Both the position numbers and the translations under genes were made by a program. Below the pieces are notes generated by a model, which was given only the letters and a program-made list of their open reading frames with translations, made no database searches and had not been told where the DNA came from. Shown here one piece after another: positions 2,664 to 47,963 of a stretch of 64,000 nt of DNA (positions are counted from its first letter, which is position 1; each line of letters begins with the position of its first letter). The stretch lies in NCBI RefSeq assembly GCF_023101185.1, contig NZ_CP078077.1, positions 248,001 to 312,000 on the forward strand, written 5' to 3'. This stretch comes from Microbacterium galbinum. GTDB taxonomy: Bacteria > Actinomycetota > Actinomycetes > Actinomycetales > Microbacteriaceae.

Positions 2664-3698
2664 TCATGCATCCGTCGGCGCGGGGCCGCTCGATTCGCGC
2701 ACGATCAGGCGCCGCGCCGACACGCTCTGCGACCCGACGTCCTCTCCGCTCACGAGCTGTGCGAGCAGCGCCACCGCGGTGCGAGCGCTCTCCTCGACCG
2801 GGGCGTCGAGCGCGGTGAGCCGCGGGCGCACCAGGCTCGAGACCCAGGAGTCCTCCCACGCGATCACCGACAGCTGCTCGGGCACGCGCACACCGATCTC
2901 GGGCGCATGCGCGACGATCTCGGCCGCGAGGGCCTCACTGTCGACGAGCAGGGCCGTCGTCGCTTCGGCGCGCGCCAGCAGATCGGCCACCGGATCGGAT
3001 GCCGCGCGATCCCAGCGCAGCACGAGCGAGGTCATGCCGCGCTTCTCTGCGGCATCCACGAACCGACGATCACGATCGCGGGCGTGCACGAGACCGGGCG
3101 AATCGCTCACGCGCGCGACGGCGCAGTGGCCGAGACCGTGAAGGTGCTCGAGCACCTCCTCGTACGCGGCATCATCATGCACGGTCACGGCCGGCACGGC
3201 GTCGTCGACCGGCGCTCCGAGCAGCACGGCGGGTGCGCCGAGCTCGCGAACGAAGCCGATGCGGGGGTCGTCGTCGCGGAGGTCGACGAGCAGGAACGCA
3301 TCCACTCGCTGCTCGCTCCACCACTCGCGGTACACGCGCTCCTCGTCGTCGGCGCGCACGAGGGTGAGCGAGAGCGACCATCCGATCTCGGCGAGCGGTT
3401 CGGTCAGGCCCGCGATCAGCCGCATGAAGAAGGGATCGCGCTCGAACGTGTCACCCGAGCGGGCGATCACGAGACCGAGGCTGCGTCCACCCTGACCGCT
3501 CACCTTGCGGCTCGCGTAGTTCGGACGCCAGTGCAACTCGTCGGCCGCCTGACGGATGCGCGCGGCCGTCGCCGCAGACACGTTGGGCCGTCCGTTGAAC
3601 ACGTGCGACACGGCGGAGGGCGACACCCCGGCGCGCGCGGCGACCGCTGCGATCGTCGCGCGGGCGGGCTTCTTCTCGTTCGTCACCTTCTCGCTCAC
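2664..3698 (-). CDS. LacI family transcriptional regulator of the mannoside locus
   Basis: A 344-residue LacI/GalR-type repressor. Residues 14-60 hold the helix-turn-helix and hinge (TIAAVAARAGVSPSAVSHVFNG, then NVSAATAARIRQAA and WRPNYAS); the rest is a periplasmic-binding-like effector domain. GTG at 3698 is used as start because the hexamer TAATCT lies seven bases upstream, consistent with a leaderless or nearly leaderless mRNA, and no Shine-Dalgarno sequence is present. Its -35 element (TTTACA, complement of 3729-3734) lies inside operator 1 of the divergent region, so the sequence predicts autoregulation as well as control of the lipoprotein operon. The likely inducer is a mannose-containing oligosaccharide, judged only from the neighbouring enzymes. 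Confidence 0.9.
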   Translation of the reverse strand: MSEKVTNEKKPARATIAAVAARAGVSPSAVSHVFNGRPNVSAATAARIRQAADELHWRPNYASRKVSGQGGRSLGLVIARSGDTFERDPFFMRLIAGLTEPLAEIGWSLSLTLVRADDEERVYREWWSEQRVDAFLLVDLRDDDPRIGFVRELGAPAVLLGAPVDDAVPAVTVHDDAAYEEVLEHLHGLGHCAVARVSDSPGLVHARDRDRRFVDAAEKRGMTSLVLRWDRAASDPVADLLARAEATTALLVDSEALAAEIVAHAPEIGVRVPEQLSVIAWEDSWVSSLVRPRLTALDAPVEESARTAVALLAQLVSGEDVGSQSVSARRLIVRESSGPAPTDA

Positions 3699-16890: not shown

Positions 16891-17958
16891 TCACAGCTCC
16901 GAGGACTTGGCCCACAGGTTGACGTCGACCTTGCCCGAGAGGGAGTCGATGCGGGCGAGCTGCTCGGAGGTGAACTCCGGACCGTTCACCGCGGCGATGT
17001 TCTCGTCGAGCTGCGAGACGCGCGAGGCGCCGATCAGCGCCGAGGCGACGACCGGGTTGCGCAGCGTCCACTGCAGGGCGAGCTGGGCGAGCGACTGTCC
17101 GCGCTCCTTCGCCACCTCGTTCAGATCGCGCAGGGTCTGCACGGCCTCGTCGCTCAGACGCCCCTCGGGCAGCGAGCCGCGCTTCTGCGCGCGATCGGCC
17201 GTGCCGTCGCCGAGGTACTTGTCGGTGAGCAGGCCCTGGGCGAGTGGGGTGAACGCGATCGCGCCGAGGCCGTTCTGCGTGAGGGTGTCGTCGAGGCCGT
17301 CCTCGACCCAGCGGTTGAGGATCGAGTACGCGGGCTGGTGGATGACGAGCGGGGTGCCCAGCTCCTTCGCGACGGCGACGGCCTCGGCCGTGCGCTCGGC
17401 GCTGTACGAGGAGATGCCCACGTAGAGCGCCTTACCCTGGCGGACCAGGGTGTCGAGCGCTGCGACGGTCTCGGTGATCGGGGTGACCGGGTCGACGCGG
17501 TGCGAGTAGAAGATGTCGACGTAGTCGAGGCCCATGCGCGTGAGCGACTGCTCGGCGCTCGCGAGGATGTACTTGCGGCTCGCGAAGTCTCCGTAGGGCC
17601 CGGGCCACATGTCCCACCCGGCCTTCGACGAGATGATGAGCTCGTCGCGGTACGGGCGGAAGTCCTCGGCGAAGATGCGACCGAAGTTCTTCTCGGCCGA
17701 GCCGTAGGGCGGGCCGTAGTTGTTGGCGAGGTCGAAGTGCGTGATGCCGCGGTCGAACGCGTGGCGCAGCAGTGCGCGCTGGTTGTCGAGCGGGATGTTG
17801 TCGCCGAAGTTCCACCACAGGCCGAGCGAGATCGGCGGGAGGTACAGGCCGGACGAGCCGACCTGGCGATAGGCGAACTCGCTGTAGCGGCCTTCGGCGG
17901 CGGCGTACGGGCGGTGCAGTTCGGGGACGTTCGGGCTGAAGCGGGGGGAGTCGGTCAC
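16891..17958 (-). CDS. Aldo/keto reductase (YghZ/Kv-beta-like)
   Basis: NADPH-dependent aldo/keto reductase of 355 residues. [19 protein letters not shown] carries the catalytic Asp and Tyr; the catalytic Lys is in [21 protein letters not shown] and the His in DIFYSHRVD. The layout matches YghZ, which reduces L-glyceraldehyde 3-phosphate and methylglyoxal-like aldehydes. The GTG at 17958 overlaps the rsmA stop codon (GTGA) and lies six bases after a TAATCT hexamer, so it can be made from its own leaderless transcript as well as from read-through. It separates rsmA from ispE, which are usually adjacent. Confidence 0.9.
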
Positions 17959-21042: not shown

Positions 21043-22620
21043 TCAGGCGGTCGTCTCCACGCGCGGGAACAGCGGCGCGAGACCGTTGACGCTCGTGCCC
21101 GGCTTCAGCGCACCCCAGGTGCCCGCCTCGCGGATCGGCTGATCCTGCAGGCGGCCCAGGTCGTCTCCGGCGCCGAGCGCCTCCCAGAGCTTCTCGGTGG
21201 ACTGCGGCATCACCGGCGACAGCAGCACGGCGAGCGCGCGCAATCCCTCGGCGCACGTGTACAGCACGGTGCCGAGCCGCTCGCGCTGAGCCTCGTCGCG
21301 GGCCAGCGCCCACGGCTCGTTCTCGGTGATGTAGCCGTTGAGCGCGTCGACGATCTTCCAGATCGACGAGATCGCCTCGTCGATGCGGAACTGCTCGATC
21401 GCGGCATCCGCCTTCGTCGCGGCATCCGCCACGATCTGCTGGATCGCGAGGTCCTTCTCGGTGTACTCGCCCGCGGGCGGCACGATCCCCTCGAAGTACT
21501 TCTCGATCATCGCGGTCGTGCGCGAGGCGAGGTTGCCGAAGCCGTTCGCGAGCTCGGCCTGGTAGCGCGCCGCGAGGTCCTCCCACGAGAACGAGCCGTC
21601 CTGACCGAAGGCGATCGCCGACAGGAAGTAGAAGCGGTACGCGTCGGAGCCGAAGACATCGGTGATCTCGGTCGGCGCGATGCCGGTGAGCTTCGACTTC
21701 GACATCTTCTCGCCGCCGACCAGCAGCCAGCCGTGCGCGAAGACGCCCTTGGGCACATCGACGCCCGCGGCCATCAGCATCGCCGGCCAGATGACCGCGT
21801 GGAAGCGCAGGATGTCCTTGCCGACCACGTGGTAGGCCGGCCAGCGCCGATCGAAGTTCGCGTCGTCGTCGCCGTAGCCGACCGCGGTCGCGTAGTTGAG
21901 CAGTGCGTCGACCCACACGTAGATGACGTGCGCGTCGTCCCACGGCACCTCGATGCCCCAGTCGAACGCCGACCGCGAGATCGAGAGGTCCTTGAGACCC
22001 TGGCGCACGAACGAGACGACCTCGTTGCGTGCCGACTCCGGGCGGATGAAGTCGGGCTGCTCCTTGTAGAGCTCGAGCAGACGGTCCTGGAACTCGCTGA
22101 GCTTGAAGAAGTAGTTCTTCTCCTGCAGCAGCTCGAGGGGCTTGGAGTGGATCGCACAGACCTTCAGCCCCTCGAAGGGACCGGTGCCGTCGAGGATCTC
22201 GGACTCGGGCTTGAACTCCTCGCAGCCCACGCAGTAGAGCGCCTCGTACTCGCCGGCGTAGATGTAGCCGCGGTCGTAGATCGCCTGCACGAACTTCTTC
22301 ACGCGCTCCTCATGACGCTCCTGCGTCGTGCGGATGAAGTCGTCGTTGGCGACATCGAGGGTCTTCAGCAACGGGAACCACGCCTCGGTGACGAGCTTGT
22401 CGACCCACTCCTGCGGGGTGACGTTGTTCGCCGCCGCCGCGCGCAGCATCTTCTGGCCGTGCTCATCGGTGCCCGTCAGCATCCAGGTGTCGTCGCCCGC
22501 CTGGCGGTGCCAGCGCGCGAGCGTGTCGACCGCCACCGAGGTGTACCCGTGGCCGATGTGGGGCACGTCGGAGGGGTAGTAGATGGGCGTGGTGATGTAG
22601 AACGATTCGCCTGCGGGCAT
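21043..22620 (-). CDS. metG: Methionyl-tRNA synthetase
   Basis: Class I aminoacyl-tRNA synthetase of 525 residues that charges tRNA-Met. The HIGH signature is HIGHGYTS (residues 21-28) and the KMSKS loop is GGEKMSKSKL near residue 303. The single CVGCEEF knuckle and the absence of a C-terminal tRNA-binding domain match the short actinobacterial form. The ATG at 22620 lies exactly six bases downstream of TAGAAT, indicating a leaderless transcript that probably continues into tatD. Confidence 0.96.
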   Translation of the reverse strand: MPAGESFYITTPIYYPSDVPHIGHGYTSVAVDTLARWHRQAGDDTWMLTGTDEHGQKMLRAAAANNVTPQEWVDKLVTEAWFPLLKTLDVANDDFIRTTQERHEERVKKFVQAIYDRGYIYAGEYEALYCVGCEEFKPESEILDGTGPFEGLKVCAIHSKPLELLQEKNYFFKLSEFQDRLLELYKEQPDFIRPESARNEVVSFVRQGLKDLSISRSAFDWGIEVPWDDAHVIYVWVDALLNYATAVGYGDDDANFDRRWPAYHVVGKDILRFHAVIWPAMLMAAGVDVPKGVFAHGWLLVGGEKMSKSKLTGIAPTEITDVFGSDAYRFYFLSAIAFGQDGSFSWEDLAARYQAELANGFGNLASRTTAMIEKYFEGIVPPAGEYTEKDLAIQQIVADAATKADAAIEQFRIDEAISSIWKIVDALNGYITENEPWALARDEAQRERLGTVLYTCAEGLRALAVLLSPVMPQSTEKLWEALGAGDDLGRLQDQPIREAGTWGALKPGTSVNGLAPLFPRVETTA

Positions 22621-22650: not shown

Positions 22651-24234
22651 TTACGCCGGTCCCACCGTCACGTCGATGCGGTGCCAGCCCTGGGCGCCGT
22701 CGGGTGCGGGGGCCGCGCGCTGCTCGGTCTGCGTGTCGCCGTCGGCACCGATCGCCCGGCACTCGATGCTGTGCTCACCGACCTGCGCCGACCACGGCAT
22801 GCTCCACTGCACCCAGGTGTCGTCGGAGATCCCGGTCGCGAGGTCGGCAGCCTGCCACGACCCGCCGTCGACGCGCACCTCGACGCCCGCGACGCCCGTG
22901 TGCGGAAACCAGCCCATGCCCGCGATCATCGTCTCCCCCGCAACGACCGTCCGTCCATCGCGCGGCACGTCGATGCGCGACTGCAGCTTGATCGGTCCGT
23001 GGTCGGACCAGCCGCGCGGGGTCCAGTACCCCATCGCCCGGTCGAAGCGCGTGACCTCGAGCTCGGTGACCCACTTCGTCGCCGAGACGTATCCGTAGAG
23101 CCCCGGCACCACCATCCGCGCGGGGAAGCCGTGCTCCAGGGTCAAGGGAGCACCGTTCATACCGATCGCCAGGAGCGCATCGCGATCGTCGGTGAGCGCC
23201 TCGATCGGCGACGAGGCGGTGAACCCGTCCGCCGAGGTCGAGAGCACCATGTCGGCGTCGGACTGCACCCCGGCGCGGGCGAGCAGTTCGCGCAACGGAT
23301 AGCCGAGCCAGCGGGCGTTGCCGATCAACGAGCCGCCCACCTCGTTCGACACGCACGAGAGCGTGACGTAGGACTCGGTCATCGGCAGCGACAGCAGTTC
23401 GTCCCAGATGACCACCACCTCACGATCGACCATGCCGTGGATGCGGAGCGACCAGTCGGCGGGGTCCACGCGCGGGACCACGAGGGCCGTGTCGATCCGG
23501 TAGAACTGCTCGGTCGGAGTGACGACGGGGGCGAGGCCCGGCAGATCGAGCTCGGCGCCGCTCGGCACCGCCGCCGCCGCGGTCGTCGGCTTCGGCAGCG
23601 TCAGAGCCTTGCGCACCGCCTCGAGAGATCGTGAGGCGCCGCGGGCCGCATTCCCGATGAGCAGGGAGACCACGCCCGCGGCCGCGACGCCGCCCGTCCA
23701 CAGCAGGAAGCGGCGGCGATCGTCGGGGTCGGGCGCGACGCCCACGATCGGGCGGAGCCTGCGGATCAGCAGCCGCAGGACGAACGCCGAGACCCCGCCC
23801 GCGACGATGCCGGGCACCCACGCGTACGGGCCCGGGTTCGCCCGCGTCAGCGCCACCAGCACCGCCACCGCGCCCAGAACACCGAACATCGTCGCCCCGA
23901 GGCCGGAGATGCGCCGTTCGACCACGCCGGCCAGAGCTGCGACCGCGGCGAGGACCACCCCGATGCCCACCAGCAGCGCGACCTTGTCGGCAGTTCCGAA
24001 GAGCGCGATCGCCGTGTCCTTCGCCCAGGCCGGTGCGAGATCGATGAGCCCGCCGCCGATGACCGCGAACGGACTCGCCTCCGGAGCGATGAGGGCGGCG
24101 ACGAGTTCTGCCGCGCCCACGCCCAGGGTGGCGGCGGCGAGCCCGGCGGCCGCCACCCGGACGCGCTCCGCCGAGCCCCGATCGCTCGGAGCCACGAGCG
24201 CGTTCGGCGGCGTCTGCGGCGGCGTCTGCATCAT
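22651..24234 (-). CDS. Membrane-anchored molybdopterin-dependent oxidoreductase (sulfite oxidase fold)
   Basis: Protein of 527 residues that joins an N-terminal membrane part to a molybdenum-cofactor catalytic part. Residues 24-205 contain about five hydrophobic helices. The catalytic domain begins near residue 240 and shows VTLSCVSNEVGGSLIGNARW, in which the Cys is the expected Mo ligand, followed by SADGFTASSPIEAL and HGFPARMVVPGLYGYVSATKWV. A C-terminal immunoglobulin-like dimerisation domain (GMGWFPHTGVAGVEVRVDGG) completes the sulfite-oxidase layout. The physiological substrate is unknown; no heme domain is present. The first ATG (24234) lies six bases after TACGAT; a second ATG directly follows. 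metG lies 30 bases downstream on the same strand. Confidence 0.9.
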   Translation of the reverse strand: MMQTPPQTPPNALVAPSDRGSAERVRVAAAGLAAATLGVGAAELVAALIAPEASPFAVIGGGLIDLAPAWAKDTAIALFGTADKVALLVGIGVVLAAVAALAGVVERRISGLGATMFGVLGAVAVLVALTRANPGPYAWVPGIVAGGVSAFVLRLLIRRLRPIVGVAPDPDDRRRFLLWTGGVAAAGVVSLLIGNAARGASRSLEAVRKALTLPKPTTAAAAVPSGAELDLPGLAPVVTPTEQFYRIDTALVVPRVDPADWSLRIHGMVDREVVVIWDELLSLPMTESYVTLSCVSNEVGGSLIGNARWLGYPLRELLARAGVQSDADMVLSTSADGFTASSPIEALTDDRDALLAIGMNGAPLTLEHGFPARMVVPGLYGYVSATKWVTELEVTRFDRAMGYWTPRGWSDHGPIKLQSRIDVPRDGRTVVAGETMIAGMGWFPHTGVAGVEVRVDGGSWQAADLATGISDDTWVQWSMPWSAQVGEHSIECRAIGADGDTQTEQRAAPAPDGAQGWHRIDVTVGPA

Positions 24235-32709: not shown

Positions 32710-33531
32710 CTAGCCCTTCTTCGCGGCGAGCGCGGCCTGGTACAGGTCGCGCGACGACAGCCCCGTGAGTCCGGCGACCTCGGAGGCGGCATCCTTCAGG
32801 CGGATGCCGTCGGCGACGAGCCGCTGCACCTGCGCGAGCGCGTCCTCGGGCGAGGCATCGCGACGCGGCGCCCCCTCGACGACCACGACGATCTCCCCCT
32901 TCACGCCGCCCTCGGCCCAGGCGACGAGTTCGGCGGCCGTTCCCCGGCGCACCTCCTCGTAGAACTTGGTGAGCTCGCGGCAGACGGCGATGCGCCGGTC
33001 GTCGCCGAAGGCCGCCCCCATGTCGGCGAGCGCCGAGGCGAGGCGGGCCGGCGACTCGAAGAACACCATCGTGCGCGGCTCGGAGGCGAGCGCCCGCAGC
33101 GCCGTGCGGCGCTCGGCGGGCTTGCGGGGCAGGAACCCCTCGAAAGTGAAGCGGTCGGTGGGAAGGCCCGAGATCGCCAGTGCCATCAGCGGCGCGCTCG
33201 GCCCGGGGATGGCGGTGACCGTCACTCCCTGGGCTACCGCCTCGGCGACGAGCCCGTAGCCGGGGTCGCTCACCGTCGGCATGCCCGCATCGCTCATCAC
33301 GACGACGTCGGTCTCGATCGCGAGGGTCGCGAGCTCGGCGGCCTTCTGCTTCTCGTTGTGATCGTGCAGCGCGATCAGACGCGGACGGTTGGCGATCTCG
33401 AGCGCCTTCAACAGCTTCTGCGTGGTGCGGGTGTCCTCCGCCACGACGACCTCCGCGTTCTCGAGCACCTCGATGAGGCGGCGCGAGGCATCGCCGAGAT
33501 TTCCGATCGGGGTCGCAGCGAGGATGATCAC
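32710..33531 (-). CDS. rsmI: 16S rRNA (cytidine1402-2'-O)-methyltransferase
   Basis: RsmI of 273 residues, which 2'-O-methylates C1402 in the decoding centre of 16S rRNA. LAATPIGNLGDAS at the N-terminus, VAEDTRTTQKLL, MSDAGMPTVSDPGYGLV and IPGPSAPLMALAISGLP are the family signatures. The GTG at 33531 lies exactly six bases after a TAGGCT hexamer shared in inverted orientation with the pmt promoter. Confidence 0.95.
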   Translation of the reverse strand: MIILAATPIGNLGDASRRLIEVLENAEVVVAEDTRTTQKLLKALEIANRPRLIALHDHNEKQKAAELATLAIETDVVVMSDAGMPTVSDPGYGLVAEAVAQGVTVTAIPGPSAPLMALAISGLPTDRFTFEGFLPRKPAERRTALRALASEPRTMVFFESPARLASALADMGAAFGDDRRIAVCRELTKFYEEVRRGTAAELVAWAEGGVKGEIVVVVEGAPRRDASPEDALAQVQRLVADGIRLKDAASEVAGLTGLSSRDLYQAALAAKKG

Positions 33532-33537
33532 CCGCCC

Positions 33538-33547
33538 AGCCTAGGCT
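33538..33547. promoter_or_regulatory. Palindromic bidirectional -10 element of rsmI and pmt
   Basis: AGCCTAGGCT is a perfect 10-bp palindrome. Read on the plus strand it gives TAGGCT at 33542-33547, six bases before the pmt GTG at 33554. Read on the minus strand it gives TAGGCT at 33543-33538, six bases before the rsmI GTG at 33531. Only 22 bases separate the two start codons, so both mRNAs are predicted to be leaderless. Confidence 0.6.
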
Positions 33548-33553
33548 GTACCC

Positions 33554-35125
33554 GTGACGTCGCCCGATCCCGCTCCTGCGCTGCCAGTGCACCTGCCTGC
33601 ACACGTGGAGCGCACGACCTGGTGGGGGCGCACCCGCGACCGTCTGCTGCTCGATCCGGAGTGGAACAGCATCCTGAACTGGCTCGCGCCGTTCGCGGTG
33701 ACCCTGCTCGCGGCCTTCCTGCGACTGGTGAACGTCGGGCACCCGCACGAGCTCGCCTTCGACGAGACGTACTACGTCAAGGACGCCTGGTCGCTGTGGA
33801 CGCTCGGCTACGAGGGCACGTGGGGCGACGGCGCGAACGAGGCGTTCGTCGCGAACCAGGATCTCCCGCTGTCGGAGAAGGGCTCGTTCATCGTCCACCC
33901 GCCGCTCGGCAAGTGGCTGATCGCGCTCGGCATGGCCGCCGGCGGACCGGCCGACAGCCTCGGTTGGCGCCTCGCCACCGGCATCCTCGGCACCGCCTCC
34001 GTGCTGCTGGTCTACCTGATCGCACGCGTGCTGACGGGATCGACCGTCGCCGCGACCGTCGCCGGCTTCCTGCTCGCGATCGACGGCCTGAGCATCGTGC
34101 TCAGCCGCATCGCCCTGCTCGACGGCCCGCTCACCTTCTTCGTGCTGCTCGGGGTGCTCTTCGTGCTCCTCGACAGGCGCCGCACGATCCCGCTCCTCGA
34201 ACGGGGCGACCCCGACAGACCCGAGCCGCTGTGGGGTCCGATCCTGTGGCGGCGCCCCTGGCTGATCGCGGCGGGCGTCGCCCTCGGCGCCGCCTCCGCC
34301 GTGAAGTGGTCGGGCCTGTACGCGCTCGCGGGCTTCGGCCTGTACGTCGTGGTGACGGATGCCCTCGCACGGCGCCGGGCGGGCGTCGTGGTCTGGCCGT
34401 CCGACGCGGTCTTCCGGCAGGGCCCGGTCTCGTTCGCGCTGCTGGTCTTCCCCGCGCTCGCGACCTACCTCGTCAGCTGGACAGGATGGCTGGTCACCGC
34501 GGGAGGGTACGACCGGCAGAGCGACCCGAATCCGCTGATCGCGCTGTGGAACTACCACCAGTCCATGCTCGGGTTCCACGTCGGGCTCACCCGCGGGCAC
34601 CCCTACGCGAGTCCCGCGTGGGAGTGGCCGTTCCTCCTGCGCCCCACCGCGGTGTGGGTCGACAGCGACCCTGGCCCCTGCGGCACCGACCACTGCATCG
34701 CCGTGATCTCCTCGATCCCGAACCCGCTGATCTGGTACGCCGGAGTCGCGGCATCCGTCTACCTGCTCTACCGGCTCGTGCGCGGCTGGGTGCTGCGGCA
34801 GCCGGTCGGCGCCGAGATCGGCATCCCGCTCGTCGGCCTCGCGGTGACGTACGTGCCCTGGCTGATGTTCCCCGAGCGCACGATCTTCCAGTTCTACACG
34901 GTCGTCATGATGCCGTTCCTCGTGATCGCGCTCGCCCTGACGCTGCGCACGATCGCCGGTCGGCGCGACGACCCTCTTTACAGACGGCAGTCCGGCGAGC
35001 GCACCGTGATCGTCTTCCTGGTCGTCGCCGTGCTGGTGTCGATCTTCTTCCTACCGTCGTGGGTCGGCATGAGCGTGCCGTACCCGTTCTGGCTCGTGCA
35101 CAACTGGCTGCCCGGCTGGGTGTGA
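33554..35125 (+). CDS. pmt: Polyprenyl-phosphate-mannose protein mannosyltransferase (GT39)
   Basis: Integral-membrane O-mannosyltransferase of 523 residues that transfers mannose from a polyprenyl phosphate carrier to secreted proteins. The first extracytoplasmic loop has HELAFDETYYVKDAW with the catalytic acidic pair, followed by FIVHPPLGKWLIALG. About ten transmembrane helices follow, and WYAGVAASVYLLYRL and LMFPERTIFQFYTVVMMPF are family blocks near the C-terminus. Its stop codon abuts the stop of the amino-acid permease gene with no gap (TGATCA). It is divergent from rsmI, as in mycobacteria. Confidence 0.93.
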   Translation: MTSPDPAPALPVHLPAHVERTTWWGRTRDRLLLDPEWNSILNWLAPFAVTLLAAFLRLVNVGHPHELAFDETYYVKDAWSLWTLGYEGTWGDGANEAFVANQDLPLSEKGSFIVHPPLGKWLIALGMAAGGPADSLGWRLATGILGTASVLLVYLIARVLTGSTVAATVAGFLLAIDGLSIVLSRIALLDGPLTFFVLLGVLFVLLDRRRTIPLLERGDPDRPEPLWGPILWRRPWLIAAGVALGAASAVKWSGLYALAGFGLYVVVTDALARRRAGVVVWPSDAVFRQGPVSFALLVFPALATYLVSWTGWLVTAGGYDRQSDPNPLIALWNYHQSMLGFHVGLTRGHPYASPAWEWPFLLRPTAVWVDSDPGPCGTDHCIAVISSIPNPLIWYAGVAASVYLLYRLVRGWVLRQPVGAEIGIPLVGLAVTYVPWLMFPERTIFQFYTVVMMPFLVIALALTLRTIAGRRDDPLYRRQSGERTVIVFLVVAVLVSIFFLPSWVGMSVPYPFWLVHNWLPGWV

Positions 35126-36508
35126 TCAGCGCCGGCGTGTGAGGCGTGCGACGACCCAGAGCGCGAGCGTCAGCCCGGCCGTGAGCAGCAGTTGCGTGCG
35201 AGCCGCGGCATCGAACGCCGCGAGCACGACGACGCCGGCGATCAGAGCGACGCACAGCCACGACAGCCAGGGGAAGCCCCACATGCGGATCGGCAGCTCC
35301 GTGCCCGTGCGCTCGGCGCGGCGGCGCAGGATGATCTGCGACACCGCGACGGCCGCCCACGTCACGAGCAGCGTCGAGCCCACCACGTTCAGCAGCACCG
35401 GGAGCACGACGTCGGGGAACGCCCAGTTCAGCCCCACGGCCACGAAGCCGAAGGCGACCGAGGCGACGACGGCGATCCGCGGGACCCCCTTCACGGTGGT
35501 GCGCGTGAGCGCGCGGGGCGCGAGGCCGCGCTCCCCCAGCGAGAACACCATGCGCGAGGCGCCGTAGATGTTGGCGTTCATGGCCGACAACAGCGCCACG
35601 ACGACGATGATCGACATCACCAGATCGACGCCGGGAAGGCGCAGGGTGGCGAGCACGGCCGAGAACGGCCCGTCGAGCACCGCCGGGGTGTTCCACGGCA
35701 GCACGGCGACGATCACGAAGATCGAGCCCAGGTAGAACACGAGGATGCGCACGAGCACCTGGCGCACGATCCGGCGGATGCTGCGGCCGGGGTCCGCCGA
35801 TTCCGCCGCCGCGATCGCGACGAGTTCGGTGCCGCCGAACGCGAAGACGACGATGAGCAGGGCGGCGGCGATGCCGGCGGCGCCGTTCGGGGCGAAGCCG
35901 CCCTCGTCGAAGAGATGCGCGATGCCGGTCGCCGGCACCCCGGGGAACAGCCCGAGGATCGCGCAGACGCCGATCACGAGGAACACGATGATCGCGGTCA
36001 CCTTGATCGCCGCGAACCAGAACTCGAACCGTCCGTAGCCGCTCACCGCGAAGAGGTTGATGGCGGTGAACGCGGCGACGAACAGCAGTACCCACACCCA
36101 CGCGGGCACGGCCGGCACCCACCCCGCGACGATCCCCGCGGCGCCCGTCGCCTCGGCGGCGATCACGACCACGAGCTGGATCCAGTACATCCATCCGACC
36201 GCGCTGCCGGCGCTGCGCCCCATCGCATCCTGCGCGTAGGAGCTGAAGGCGCCGGAGCTGGGGCGCGCGGCCACCATCTCGGCGAGCATCGCCATCACCA
36301 GCACGACGATGGAACCCGCCACGAGGTACGAGATCAGCACCGCGGGACCGGCCAGACCGATCGCCTGCCCCGAGCCGACGAAGAGACCGGCACCGATCGC
36401 GCTGCCGAGCCCCATCATCGAGATCTGACGGCGCGTCAGCCCCGGCTTCAACGAGGTCGATGCGGTGCTCGACGCGGGGGCGGGTGCGGTGGGGGCGGAG
36501 TCGGTCAC
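35126..36508 (-). CDS. APC-family amino-acid permease
   Basis: Twelve-helix amino-acid transporter of 460 residues. LTRRQISMMGLGSAIGAGLFVGSG is the first-helix signature of the AAT subfamily of the amino acid-polyamine-organocation superfamily, and AGSAVGWMYWIQ and FAFGGTELVAIAAAESADP follow. The substrate could be an aromatic, aliphatic or gamma-aminobutyrate-like amino acid and cannot be fixed from sequence. GTG at 36508 is six bases downstream of TAGGGT. Confidence 0.9.
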   Translation of the reverse strand: MTDSAPTAPAPASSTASTSLKPGLTRRQISMMGLGSAIGAGLFVGSGQAIGLAGPAVLISYLVAGSIVVLVMAMLAEMVAARPSSGAFSSYAQDAMGRSAGSAVGWMYWIQLVVVIAAEATGAAGIVAGWVPAVPAWVWVLLFVAAFTAINLFAVSGYGRFEFWFAAIKVTAIIVFLVIGVCAILGLFPGVPATGIAHLFDEGGFAPNGAAGIAAALLIVVFAFGGTELVAIAAAESADPGRSIRRIVRQVLVRILVFYLGSIFVIVAVLPWNTPAVLDGPFSAVLATLRLPGVDLVMSIIVVVALLSAMNANIYGASRMVFSLGERGLAPRALTRTTVKGVPRIAVVASVAFGFVAVGLNWAFPDVVLPVLLNVVGSTLLVTWAAVAVSQIILRRRAERTGTELPIRMWGFPWLSWLCVALIAGVVVLAAFDAAARTQLLLTAGLTLALWVVARLTRRR

Positions 36509-36514
36509 CGCGCC

Positions 36515-36520
36515 ACCCTA
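36515..36520 (-). promoter_or_regulatory. -10 element, leaderless start of the amino-acid permease
   Basis: TAGGGT on the minus strand, six bases (GGCGCG), then GTG. It lies between the stop of the upstream DUF255 gene and the permease. Confidence 0.5.
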
Positions 36521-38329
36521 GACGGCGACCCTCTCGCGCGACAATTCGTGAGGCTCGCTCACCGGAAGCAGGCACACGAAGCCGCGGCAGTCGTAGGCCA
36601 GACCCTCCGTGCCCGAGCGCCCGGCGAACAGCTCGAACCCGGCCGCGGCGAACTCCTCGGCCTGTGCGGGCGACACGACGCCGACCACGTCGGCATCCGC
36701 ACGTCGGGCGGCGACGGCGAGTGCGCCCGCCGGATCGTCGGTGACCACCACGATCTGCCGCGGCGGATCGACGAGCCCGGCCGCGACACGCAGCAGACTG
36801 CCGTGCGCGAACGGTTGGGACAGGGCGGATGCCGCGTAGGCGTGCACCACGGACGCGGCCGCCTCGCGATACCGTTCCCCCACCCCGAGGCGCCACGCGG
36901 TCAGCGCTGCCTGAGCGAGTGCTGCGGAGCCGGACGGTAGATCGCCGTCGGTCTGATCGGGAGACGAGGCGATCCCCTGCGCGCTCAGCAGCGGATCGCC
37001 GGCGATGCCGTCGAGGGCGAGATCGACGATGCCCTGTGCGGCGATCGCCCACGTCGCCTCCCCCGTCGCGAGAGCCAGCGCGAAGAGGCCGTCGGCGAGG
37101 AGGCCGAGATCGGAGGGGGTCGCGACGGCCGTCGATGACACACCGTCGAGCGACGCGCGCACGAGGGCACCGCTCGCATCGCGGTTGGTGGTGAGCACGG
37201 CATCCGCGGCCCGCCGGGCGGCGTCGACCCAGGATGCTTCGCCCAGAGCAGCGCCCGCGCGCGCGAGGGCACCGATCGCGAGGCCGTTCCAGCCCGTGAT
37301 CACCTTGCCGTCGACGGCCGGCGGTTCGAGACCTCGACGCCCGGCGGCATCACGGAGGTAGTAGCCGCCCTCGCTGCGCTCGCCGTCGATCCATGACTCG
37401 GAATCCTGGGCGGCTCCGAACCCGCCGCCTTCGCGCCCGAGGACGTCGATGAGGAAGCCGGCGACCCCGCGCACGGTGGGCTCGTCGCCGTCGTCCAGCG
37501 CGACATCCAGCAGCTGCGCGTTGTCGGTGAGCATCCGCTCGTAGTGGGGCACCGTCCAGTCGCGCTGCGTCGCGTAGCGGAAGAACCCGCCCTCGACGTC
37601 GTCGCGCAGATCGCTCGCGGCCATCGCGGAGAGAGCCCGCCGCCCCGCCTCCGCCGCCGGCGCGTTCTCCCGGCACACGAGCGGCGCCTGCAGGAACCGC
37701 AGCACCGTCGCGACGGGGAACTTCGGAGCACCCCCGAAACCGCCGTGCTGCGGGTCTTCGCGGTCGGCGATCGCCGATGCCGCGCCCGCGAGCGCCGCGG
37801 CATCGGGCAGGTCCGAGGGCGTCGTCTCGGCGGCGCGCGCGAGTGCTTCGATCACGGCATCCGCCGACTCCTCGGCCTGCGCCCGGCGCTGCGTCCACCC
37901 CTCCTGCACCGCCGCGAGCACCTCGCGGAACGAGGGCATCGGCGGGCGGGAGTCCGGCGGCCAATAGGTGCCCGCGAAGAACGTGCGCCCGCGCGGGGTC
38001 GCGAAGACGGTGAGCGGCCAGCCGAGGTTCTGGGTGAAGGCGGATGCCGCGGCCATGTACGCCCCGTCGACCTCGGGATGCTCCTCGCGGTCGACCTTCA
38101 CCGCCACGAAGTCGCGGTTCACGATCTCCGCGGTCTCGGGGTCGGCGAAGGACTCGCGCGCCATCACATGGCACCAGTGGCACGTCGAGTACCCGATCGA
38201 GATCATCAGTGGCACGTCGCGGCGCTGCGCCTCGGCGAACGCCTCCTCGCCCCACGGGTACCAGTCGACGGGGTTCTCGGCGTGCGCGCGGAGGTACGGG
38301 CTGAGCGTGTCGGCGAGCCGGTTGGTCAT
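36518..38329 (-). CDS. Thioredoxin domain / six-hairpin glycosidase-like protein (YyaL, DUF255)
   Basis: Protein of 603 residues of the YyaL/SPATA20 family. Residues 1-160 form a thioredoxin-like domain with a CHWC active site at residues 50-53 ([13 protein letters not shown]). The remainder resembles an alpha/alpha barrel of the glycosidase superfamily, with [37 protein letters not shown] and [16 protein letters not shown] blocks. The cellular function is not known. The ATG at 38329 lies six bases after TAGCGT. Confidence 0.9.
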
Positions 38330-39034: not shown

Positions 39035-41058
<2,024 letters not shown>

Positions 41059-41065
41059 CCGATGC

Positions 41066-41094
41066 ATCGTAGGGGGTCGAGGTCGGCATACGAT
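41066..41094. promoter_or_regulatory. Divergent -10 elements of the acyltransferase-like gene and hrpA
   Basis: TACGAT occurs on the minus strand at 41071-41066, seven bases before the GTG at 41058, and on the plus strand at 41089-41094, eight bases before the hrpA ATG. The two elements point away from each other across 17 bases. Confidence 0.4.
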
Positions 41095-45964: not shown

Positions 45965-45970
45965 GGGGTG

Positions 45971-46912
45971 ATGGCTCGCGCGATCGTCTACACCGAAATC
46001 GGCTCCCCCGACGTCCTCCACCTCACGGAGGTGCCCGATCCCCTCGCCGGTCCCGGCGAGATCGTGGTGCGCATCGAGGCCGCGGGCGTCAACCCGATCG
46101 ATGCGAAGATCCGCGGCGGACGCCGCCCCTCGCCGCCCATCACCGAACCCCGCCCGGTCGGCTTCGACGGTGCGGGTGTCGTCGATCAGGTCGGCGACGG
46201 TGTGGAAGGCTTCGCGGTCGGCGACCGGGTCGCGATCCGCGACGCCCACGGCACCTACGCGTCGGCCCTGCTCGTGCGCCCCGAGAACCTCGCCCTCCTG
46301 CCCGACGCGGTGACCGCCGCGGAGGGCGCCGGCATCGGCATCCCCGCCGGCACCGCCTATCAGGTGCTGCGCTCGCTCGCCGTGGGCCCCGACGACGTGC
46401 TGCTCGTGCACGCGGGTTCCGGTGCCGTCGGCCAGGCGGCCGTGCAGTTCGCCGTGGCGTGGGGCGCGACCGTGATCGCGACCGCCAGCCCCTCGCGCCA
46501 CGCGCAGCTGCGCGAGCTCGGTGCGATCCCCGTGGCCTACGGCGACGGCCTGCTCGAACGCGTGCGCGACGCCGCACCTTCCGACGTCACCGTCGTGTTC
46601 GACGGCGCCGGCACCGACGAAGCCATCGAGGTGTCACTCGCGCTCGTCGCCGACCGCGACCGCATCGGCACGATCGTGCGCGGACCGGACGCCGCATCGT
46701 TCGGCATCCGCGCCTTCTCGGGCGGCTCGCCGGTCCCGCTCACCGACGAGGAGCAGGCCTGGCGCGCCGAGGCGCTGCCGAAGACCATCGAACTCCTCGC
46801 CAGCGGCGACTTCGTGATCGAACTCGGACCCGAGCTGCCCCTCGCCGAGGCCGCCCGGGCCCACGAACTCGTCGAGGCGCACGTCGCGGGCAAGATCGTG
46901 CTGCTGCCGTAG
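45971..46912 (+). CDS. NADPH:quinone oxidoreductase (zinc-free MDR family)
   Basis: Medium-chain dehydrogenase/reductase of 313 residues without the zinc-ligand cysteines, as in quinone oxidoreductases. GEIVVRIEAAGVNPIDAKIRGG and PVGFDGAGVVDQVGDGV form the catalytic-domain signature; LLVHAGSGAVGQAAVQFAVAWG is the NADPH-binding Rossmann loop. It probably reduces quinones or enones in the cytoplasm. It has its own leaderless promoter. Confidence 0.92.
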   Translation: MARAIVYTEIGSPDVLHLTEVPDPLAGPGEIVVRIEAAGVNPIDAKIRGGRRPSPPITEPRPVGFDGAGVVDQVGDGVEGFAVGDRVAIRDAHGTYASALLVRPENLALLPDAVTAAEGAGIGIPAGTAYQVLRSLAVGPDDVLLVHAGSGAVGQAAVQFAVAWGATVIATASPSRHAQLRELGAIPVAYGDGLLERVRDAAPSDVTVVFDGAGTDEAIEVSLALVADRDRIGTIVRGPDAASFGIRAFSGGSPVPLTDEEQAWRAEALPKTIELLASGDFVIELGPELPLAEAARAHELVEAHVAGKIVLLP

Positions 46913-46952: not shown

Positions 46953-47963
46953 ATGACTGGTCTTCGATGGGGAATCCTCGCGACGGGCGGCATCGCCGGC
47001 TCGTTCGCTTCCGACCTGCGCGCCGCGGGTCTCGACCTGGTGGCCGTGGGGTCGCGTTCGCAGGAATCGGCGGATGCCTTCGCCGCCCGCTTCGACATCC
47101 CGCACGCCCACCCGTCCTACGAGGCTCTCGTCGCCGATCCCGACGTCGACATCATCTACGTCTCGACCCCGCACCCGATGCACCACGCGAACGCGCGCCT
47201 GGCGCTCGAGGCCGGCAAGCACGTGCTCGTCGAGAAGGCCTTCACGCTGAACCAGGCCGAGGCCGCCGACCTGCAGGCCCTCGCCACCGAGCGCGGTCTG
47301 CTCGCGACCGAGGCGATGTGGACCCGCTATCTGCCGCACATGATCCGGGTGCGTGAGATCGTCGCCTCCGGCATCCTCGGCGAGGTGCGCTCGGTGAGCG
47401 CCGACCACACGCAGCTGCTGCCCTCCGACCCCGAGCACCGTTTGAACGCGCTCGAGCTCGGCGGGGGCGCCCTCCTCGACCTGGCGATCTACCCGATCTC
47501 GTTCGTCTGGGACATCCTCGGTGCGCCCACCAGCATCCACAGCGTCGCGCGTCTGATCGAGACCGGTGCCGACGCCGAGGTCGCGACCGTCATGACCCAC
47601 GAAGGCGGCGCGGTCTCGACCACGCTCTCCTCGTCGCGCACGGCCGGCCCGAACCGCGCGACGATCCTCGGCACGAAGGCCCGCATCGAGATCGATCGCT
47701 TCTTCTGGTCGCCGTCGGTGCTGCGCGTGATCGACCCCGAGGGCACGGTGCTCGAGGAGTTCGACGGGCGTCTCGACCCCGAGGCCGGCGGCCGCGGCAT
47801 GCAGTTCGAGGCTCTCGCCGCCGAACGCCTCGTGCGCGAGGGGAACCTCGCCGGCGACATCCTGCCGCTCGCCGAGTCCGTCGCGATCATGGGCACGCTC
47901 GACGAGATCCGCCGTCAGATCGGCGTCCGCTATCCCGGCGAGTCGACCGGCGAGCAGGCCTGA
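46953..47963 (+). CDS. Gfo/Idh/MocA family oxidoreductase
   Basis: NAD(P)-dependent sugar or cyclitol dehydrogenase-like protein of 336 residues. WGILATGGIAGSFASDL is the Rossmann start, YVSTPHPMHHANARLALEAGKHVLVEKAF contains the conserved E-K pair, and EAMWTRYLPHMI begins the C-terminal substrate domain, as in trans-dihydrobenzenediol dehydrogenase-like members. The exact substrate is unknown. The NYN-domain gene follows two bases after its stop codon. Confidence 0.9.
   Translation: MTGLRWGILATGGIAGSFASDLRAAGLDLVAVGSRSQESADAFAARFDIPHAHPSYEALVADPDVDIIYVSTPHPMHHANARLALEAGKHVLVEKAFTLNQAEAADLQALATERGLLATEAMWTRYLPHMIRVREIVASGILGEVRSVSADHTQLLPSDPEHRLNALELGGGALLDLAIYPISFVWDILGAPTSIHSVARLIETGADAEVATVMTHEGGAVSTTLSSSRTAGPNRATILGTKARIEIDRFFWSPSVLRVIDPEGTVLEEFDGRLDPEAGGRGMQFEALAAERLVREGNLAGDILPLAESVAIMGTLDEIRRQIGVRYPGESTGEQA

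Follow-up and report, generated by a model that had tools for sequence, protein, structure and literature searches.

Background

The idea of the bidirectional promoter is said to have been introduced in a paper of 2021. In promoters of this kind, two opposite transcription starts flank or fall within one shared -10 element, and simultaneous binding is excluded; a distance of 18 bp between the two starts is the commonest, distances of 10 and 23 bp are also common, and five such promoters of E. coli showed little basal competition, competition being important upon activation (excerpts of PMC12825309). In M. tuberculosis, promoters carry TANNNT without a -35 motif and about a quarter of the genes are leaderless (PMC3898074, in part), and in Actinobacteria, leaderless genes, which make up more than 20% of genes, are recognizable by TANNNT at about 12 bp upstream (PMC3160421, in part). 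Closely juxtaposed divergent promoters and the divergent leaderless pair Rv1130/Rv1129c are mentioned in the excerpts of these two papers, without a shared box; Rv1003 and Rv1002c both go unmentioned in the main text of PMC3898074. Among the literature matches listed, judged by their titles and the beginnings of their abstracts, none concerned the promoter described here.

This putative promoter lies between rsmI and pmt in a window of 64,000 nucleotides of the Microbacterium galbinum genome. It resembles the bidirectional promoters of Grainger and co-workers (PMC12825309, PMC10268837, in excerpt) in its single shared -10 core, in its start distance of 23 bp (predicted here) and in the two mRNAs that would arise from one core. 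It differs from them in that its predicted starts coincide with the start codons, in that no -35 element is visible, and in that the core is shared or split among related species; moreover, the examples in these excerpts come from E. coli and Salmonella and have measured starts, whereas those of rsmI and pmt are predicted from the sequence. With the TA-led genes of Actinobacteria, as far as the parts of PMC3160421 and PMC3898074 describe them, the two genes share a first T placed 12 nt upstream, GTG starts, high GC content and the lack of a -35 element, but their boxes, unlike those of the described genes, overlap head to head. Both kinds of promoter are thus known, and the rsmI/pmt junction would be a further member, predicted to be doubly leaderless.

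The rsmI/pmt junction

The gene rsmI (positions 32710 to 33531, minus strand) encodes a 16S rRNA (cytidine(1402)-2'-O)-methyltransferase of 273 aa, which scored 246.7 bits against TIGR00096 (cut-off 167.9), matched PF00590 and PF23016, and had a best identity of 92–93% to RsmI of named Microbacterium relatives. The gene pmt (33554 to 35125, plus strand) encodes a protein O-mannosyltransferase of 523 aa that exceeded the cut-offs of PF02366, PF16192 and PF13231; its score with the NCBIfam PrMnsylTfPmt equivalog (NF058602) was 185.6, under the cut-off of 800. The two genes begin with GTG codons, at 33529 to 33531 (minus strand) and 33554 to 33556 (plus strand), and the gap between these codons is 22 bp, CCGCCCAGCCTAGGCTGTACCC.

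On either strand, TAGGCT ends 6 nt short of the respective GTG, so that the first T of each hexamer stands 12 nt upstream of the start codon. The candidate -10 box of rsmI occupies 33538 to 33543 on the minus strand and that of pmt 33542 to 33547 on the plus strand; they overlap by 2 bp within the core AGCCTAGGCT (33538 to 33547), and the TA step in both boxes (33542 to 33543) would, from the geometry, place positions -12/-11 of one box over -11/-12 of the other. This arrangement agrees exactly with the first-pass annotation, which had described a palindromic -10 box serving two leaderless genes. If each RNA begins at its own GTG, as the position of the boxes predicts for both mRNAs, the starts are 23 bp apart. 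Hexamers on both strands that share their TA, together with a start distance already known, are what characterizes the described bidirectional promoters, and both genes also carry TANNNT about 12 bp before the start codon at a frequency above background, as TA-led leaderless genes do. No -35-like hexamer was visible on either side: the expected places read CGAGGA for pmt and CGGGCG for rsmI, which are unlike TTGACA.

A similar placement recurs in the window. Among 41 genes called by ORF length and GC3, with in-frame starts considered within the first 60 codons, nine had a TANNNT separated from an in-frame start by exactly 6 nt, and each of the other offsets from 0 to 39 nt was represented by zero to two genes. 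This peak corresponds to the published mark of actinobacterial leaderless genes (PMC3160421, PMC3898074, in the parts cited above). Apart from rsmI and pmt, nine further window genes with TANNNT 6–7 nt before the start codon are likely to be leaderless: 2664–3698, 16891–17958, 21043–22620, 22651–24234, 35126–36508, 36518–38329, 39868–41067, 45968–46912 and 46953–47963.

Chance occurrence and placement

The pattern CAY-6-ANNNTANNNT-6-RTG, which is symmetric and was searched on both strands, has a single location in the 3.46-Mb genome, and the count for its reversed control is the same. The bare string is at chance level genome-wide and alone proves nothing; because its count equals that of the control, the case for a promoter has to be made from placement and conservation. 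Shuffling the mononucleotides of the window junction produced both boxes in 0.0245% of trials, and shuffling the 95 genus junctions no longer than 100 bp produced both in 0.034%, versus 97 of 98 observed with the start positions picked in that run. A looser search pattern matched 198 of 366 genus genomes, a count that includes places other than rsmI, versus six with the reversed control.

With spacings of 6 and 7 nt, the pattern is found at two further places in the same genome, at one of which one side has no gene. The other (L243, G000:C1:2846704-2846732, outside the window) is a second candidate shared -10 core, flanked by a ThiL-like gene (331 aa) and a lipoprotein-like gene (161 aa), both named by eye.

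Conservation within Microbacterium

RsmI was found in 146 of 149 genomes of the genus. From these 146 genomes, 110 junctions were taken, 30 as loci and 80 out of a list of 113 other genomes, which left off G046, G105 and G109; the rsmI start could be placed in 107 junctions and both starts in 98. The choice of the pmt start was guided not by the -10 box but by the second codon, wherever this encoded Thr or Ser. All 98 placed junctions carry ANNNTA 6–7 nt from the rsmI start and TANNNT 6–7 nt from the pmt start, and it is very likely from this conservation that both -10 boxes are real. The first-pass annotation had named lack of conservation of the hexamers in close relatives as evidence against its proposal; both are kept, and its claim that two leaderless genes have -10 boxes with bases in common is supported by hexamers held at start-codon spacing throughout the genus.

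The separation of the boxes falls into two classes. In 49 of the 98 junctions, ANNNTANNNT stands as in the window, with the TA shared (separation -2), and in the other 49 the boxes are at least 11 bp apart; no junction has a separation from -1 to 10 bp, and the class of one, L053, changes with the pmt start picked. Twenty extra junctions had been selected for a match to the shared pattern; three lacked an rsmI start, one (L145) lacked pmt and one (L159) had a doubtful pmt start, and the 15 usable ones are all shared. With these 15 and one further genus row, the enlarged set contains 64 shared and 49 split junctions. Records L162–L241 overlap genomes already counted and served only as extra comparisons in the deletion fits described below, and L250 (100 bases) was left out. 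A record titled Planococcus sp. APC 4015 (L237) has an rsmI/pmt junction that resembles those of Microbacterium and contains a shared core; the label of this record may be wrong.

The perfect palindrome to which the first-pass annotation had drawn attention does not have the same standing as the hexamers. It occurs in just six of the 64 shared junctions, of which 24 carry the commonest 10-mer, AGCATAGGCT; to judge from this comparison, the palindromic form of the window core is incidental.

Junctions without pmt and other gene pairs

In ten genus junctions, pmt was not found adjacent by the motif used, and the rsmI box is kept in all ten. One of these, L077, has a named copy (L227) that shows pmt about 600 bp away, and another, L059, is a contig end too short for the pmt-ward half to be judged. 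The pmt-ward T is absent in eight of the nine judgeable junctions. The exception (L145/L251, genome G492) has an intact shared core and, in the place of pmt, a gene starting at GTG that appears CorA-like by eye from its translation. Among the junctions with enough sequence in which neither an adjacent pmt nor a substitute partner was found, eight of eight retain the rsmI box and lack the pmt-ward T, which favours two real boxes.

The split junctions show a similar loss. The T that would complete a pmt box beside the rsmI box is absent in 48 of the 49, and GGC, TGC or GAC is left there in 38 of the 49, these rows being related to one another and hence not independent. L056 has an entire core and, ahead of pmt, another copy of it; L052 has the same arrangement with the first copy decayed. 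We would read these two junctions, together with the half-box remnants, as traces of a duplication followed by a division of labour. Directly before the TA of the pmt box, 26 of the 49 split junctions (for example L003–L028) have TGTC, often as TTGTC; the shared junction of the window has no such stretch.

Another shared core, AGCGTAGGCT, lies between a prephenate-dehydratase-like and a lipoprotein-like gene in five listed Microbacterium genomes (loci L244 and L245; the string is also present in G081, G457 and G476).

Occurrence outside the genus

At class level, orientation could be stated for 23 of 45 loci, and each of these has rsmI and pmt as a divergent pair; so do 37 of the 39 loci of a second set, the remaining two being one without a pmt hit and one without a located RsmI start. 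This agrees with the description of the two genes as divergent neighbours. Of 65 class-level loci, 51 were analysed, seven having no pmt hit and seven no located rsmI start. The TANNNT box of pmt is present in 39 of these 51 junctions and the rsmI box, at 6–7 nt, in only 13; four are shared at this spacing, in a set that several f7 and f26 genomes joined after sharing had been seen there. Outside Microbacterium (L113–L140 and class loci such as L284–L286), rsmI often has CAGACT, GAGACT or GAGGAT shortly before its start, that is, the A and the last T of a -10 box without its first T.

Sharing at rsmI/pmt recurs in two other genera. In genus g87, which we take to be probably Mycobacterium from the RsmI start of M. 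tuberculosis, the shared core was found in seven of eight sampled genomes (with 8 nt allowed) and in 28 of the best-scoring 30 loci from 58 matching genomes (with up to 8 nt on the pmt side), five genomes being common to the two sets; of the other two loci, one is not shared and one had no RsmI start found. Both genomes of genus g121 have a shared rsmI/pmt core. In the family of g87, the four genomes sampled from other genera lack the core, and none of the 21 placed junctions from other Microbacteriaceae genera (L113–L140 without L117), some with doubtful pmt starts, was shared. In one junction outside Microbacterium (L290), the boxes are 9 bp apart. From the genus labels, we infer at least three origins of the shared rsmI/pmt core.

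Probable splitting and re-fusion of the boxes

A Pmt tree was built by a quick method from 125 rows and 231 columns, with 35 of its 122 inner branches drawn open and 15 of its rows chosen as shared. It requires at least 12 changes between the shared and split states among the genus rows. In the smallest starred clade that contains the window, 25 of 28 rows are split, so overlap is mostly absent in the closest relatives, and the tree rejects overlap as a fixed feature of these relatives. A two-state model gave P(shared) of 0.84 at the root of the genus; at the four inner nodes that immediately precede the pair of the window and a genome of the same species, it gave 0.000–0.005. Its best states entail five fusions and seven splits, and its rates are rough, since the tree branches are weak, 15 rows were selected for sharing and junctions within a clade are not independent. 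As the nearest relatives of the window mostly have separate boxes, its own shared box was probably re-fused from a split ancestor.

Some shared junctions can be derived from split ones by a single deletion between short repeats. Removing 25 bp between CTTAGG repeats turns L038 exactly into L040 and L148, and removing 40 bp between TAGGC repeats turns L004 exactly into L142; L028, the neighbour of L142 in the tree, also fits L142 when it loses 26 bp, as judged by eye. Exact fits exist for five shared rows overall, L171 repeating L142. The window is an exact deletion of no sampled split junction, and differs by two mismatches from L017 less 13 bp between 3-bp CTA repeats. Because such a fit is identical whichever state came first, the direction of change is taken from the tree. 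Relatives of this bacterium seem to have split the shared promoter in two and re-fused it several times.

Interpretation

It is quite probable, to judge from geometry and conservation, that the 22 bp between rsmI and pmt act as one bidirectional promoter of the housekeeping type that yields two leaderless mRNAs, that the sharing is a compact and reversible layout and not a regulatory link, and that in the window it has been re-fused. RNA polymerase would open the DNA at the shared TA whichever way it faces, with TAGGCT of the respective strand as its -10 box, and both RNAs would begin at the G of each GTG. Each box would be maintained by selection on its own gene; a tandem duplication of the core would separate the boxes, each copy then retaining one direction, and a deletion between repeated half-boxes would fuse them again.

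Two other readings were weighed. The core might be the true -10 box of one gene, the other being read from farther upstream and its hexamer being a chance match, as may be suspected from the facts that hexamer matches alone are common and that a genome-wide search met the strict pattern no more often than its control; yet both boxes are kept in all 98 placed junctions, 49 of which have them physically separate, the pmt box is found in 39 of the 51 class-level junctions, and junctions in which no neighbouring pmt was found have lost the pmt-ward half but not the rsmI half, which makes this reading very unlikely. Still less credible, to the point of being negligible, is a palindromic operator at AGCCTAGGCT for a dimeric regulator of both genes: the window 10-mer is indeed a perfect palindrome between two divergent genes, but the inverted repeat is not conserved as such, with six perfect palindromes among 64 shared junctions and AGCATAGGCT as the commonest form, and the split relatives retain two hexamers and no palindrome. 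A palindromic operator of the divergent pair was accordingly rejected as a candidate.

A more serious alternative, which we nevertheless consider rather unlikely, accepts both boxes and holds that their overlap is selected because the polymerase serves one direction at once, so that expression of rsmI and pmt is coupled or kept low in noise. Exclusion of simultaneous polymerase binding would indeed follow from the predicted geometry, and the sharing is near-fixed in g87 and found in three genera of the class. On the other hand, half of the Microbacterium junctions (49 of 98) have separate boxes, and the state has changed repeatedly in both directions; in G492, it is a CorA-like gene that faces rsmI across the shared core; and the same geometry occurs at other, unrelated gene pairs (ThiL-like/lipoprotein-like and prephenate-dehydratase-like/lipoprotein-like). 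Given the size of RNA polymerase, two polymerases at most split junctions, where the starts are a few tens of bp apart, would be expected to obstruct each other as well, and overlap would thus add little exclusivity. The published examples point both ways, since two polymerases are described as sterically excluding each other at promoters with a shared -10 element, strong activation in one direction represses the other and interference reduced noise in a studied example, but basal competition was small at the five E. coli promoters (PMC12825309, in the excerpts cited). The repeated gain and loss, the CorA-like substitution and the other gene pairs argue against the dedicated link between rRNA methylation and O-mannosylation that the first-pass annotation had drawn from mutual exclusion. 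The best argument for coupling is the near-fixation in g87 (28 of the best 30 of 58), which keeps a milder form of the idea alive, and which would equally fit positive selection for sharing.

A wider form of this idea goes beyond the compact, reversible layout preferred here. The shared core would be an evolutionary toggle across the class, with several independent origins, and would be maintained because an indel that parts the boxes has to duplicate the core. Tandem duplication, after which each copy loses one direction, would open it, and deletion between the half-boxes would close it; in genus g87 at least, it would be near-fixed because it is useful there that starts at rsmI and pmt exclude each other, for example in limiting noise. 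In its entirety, we regard this proposal as speculative and improbable.

The record of splitting and fusing at rsmI/pmt is unusually clear. Both -10 boxes are kept through the genus, shared or separate in sister species, and the locus is in this sense a natural experiment, which permits a direct test of whether sharing alters expression or noise, and which suggests how shared promoters may arise and dissolve.
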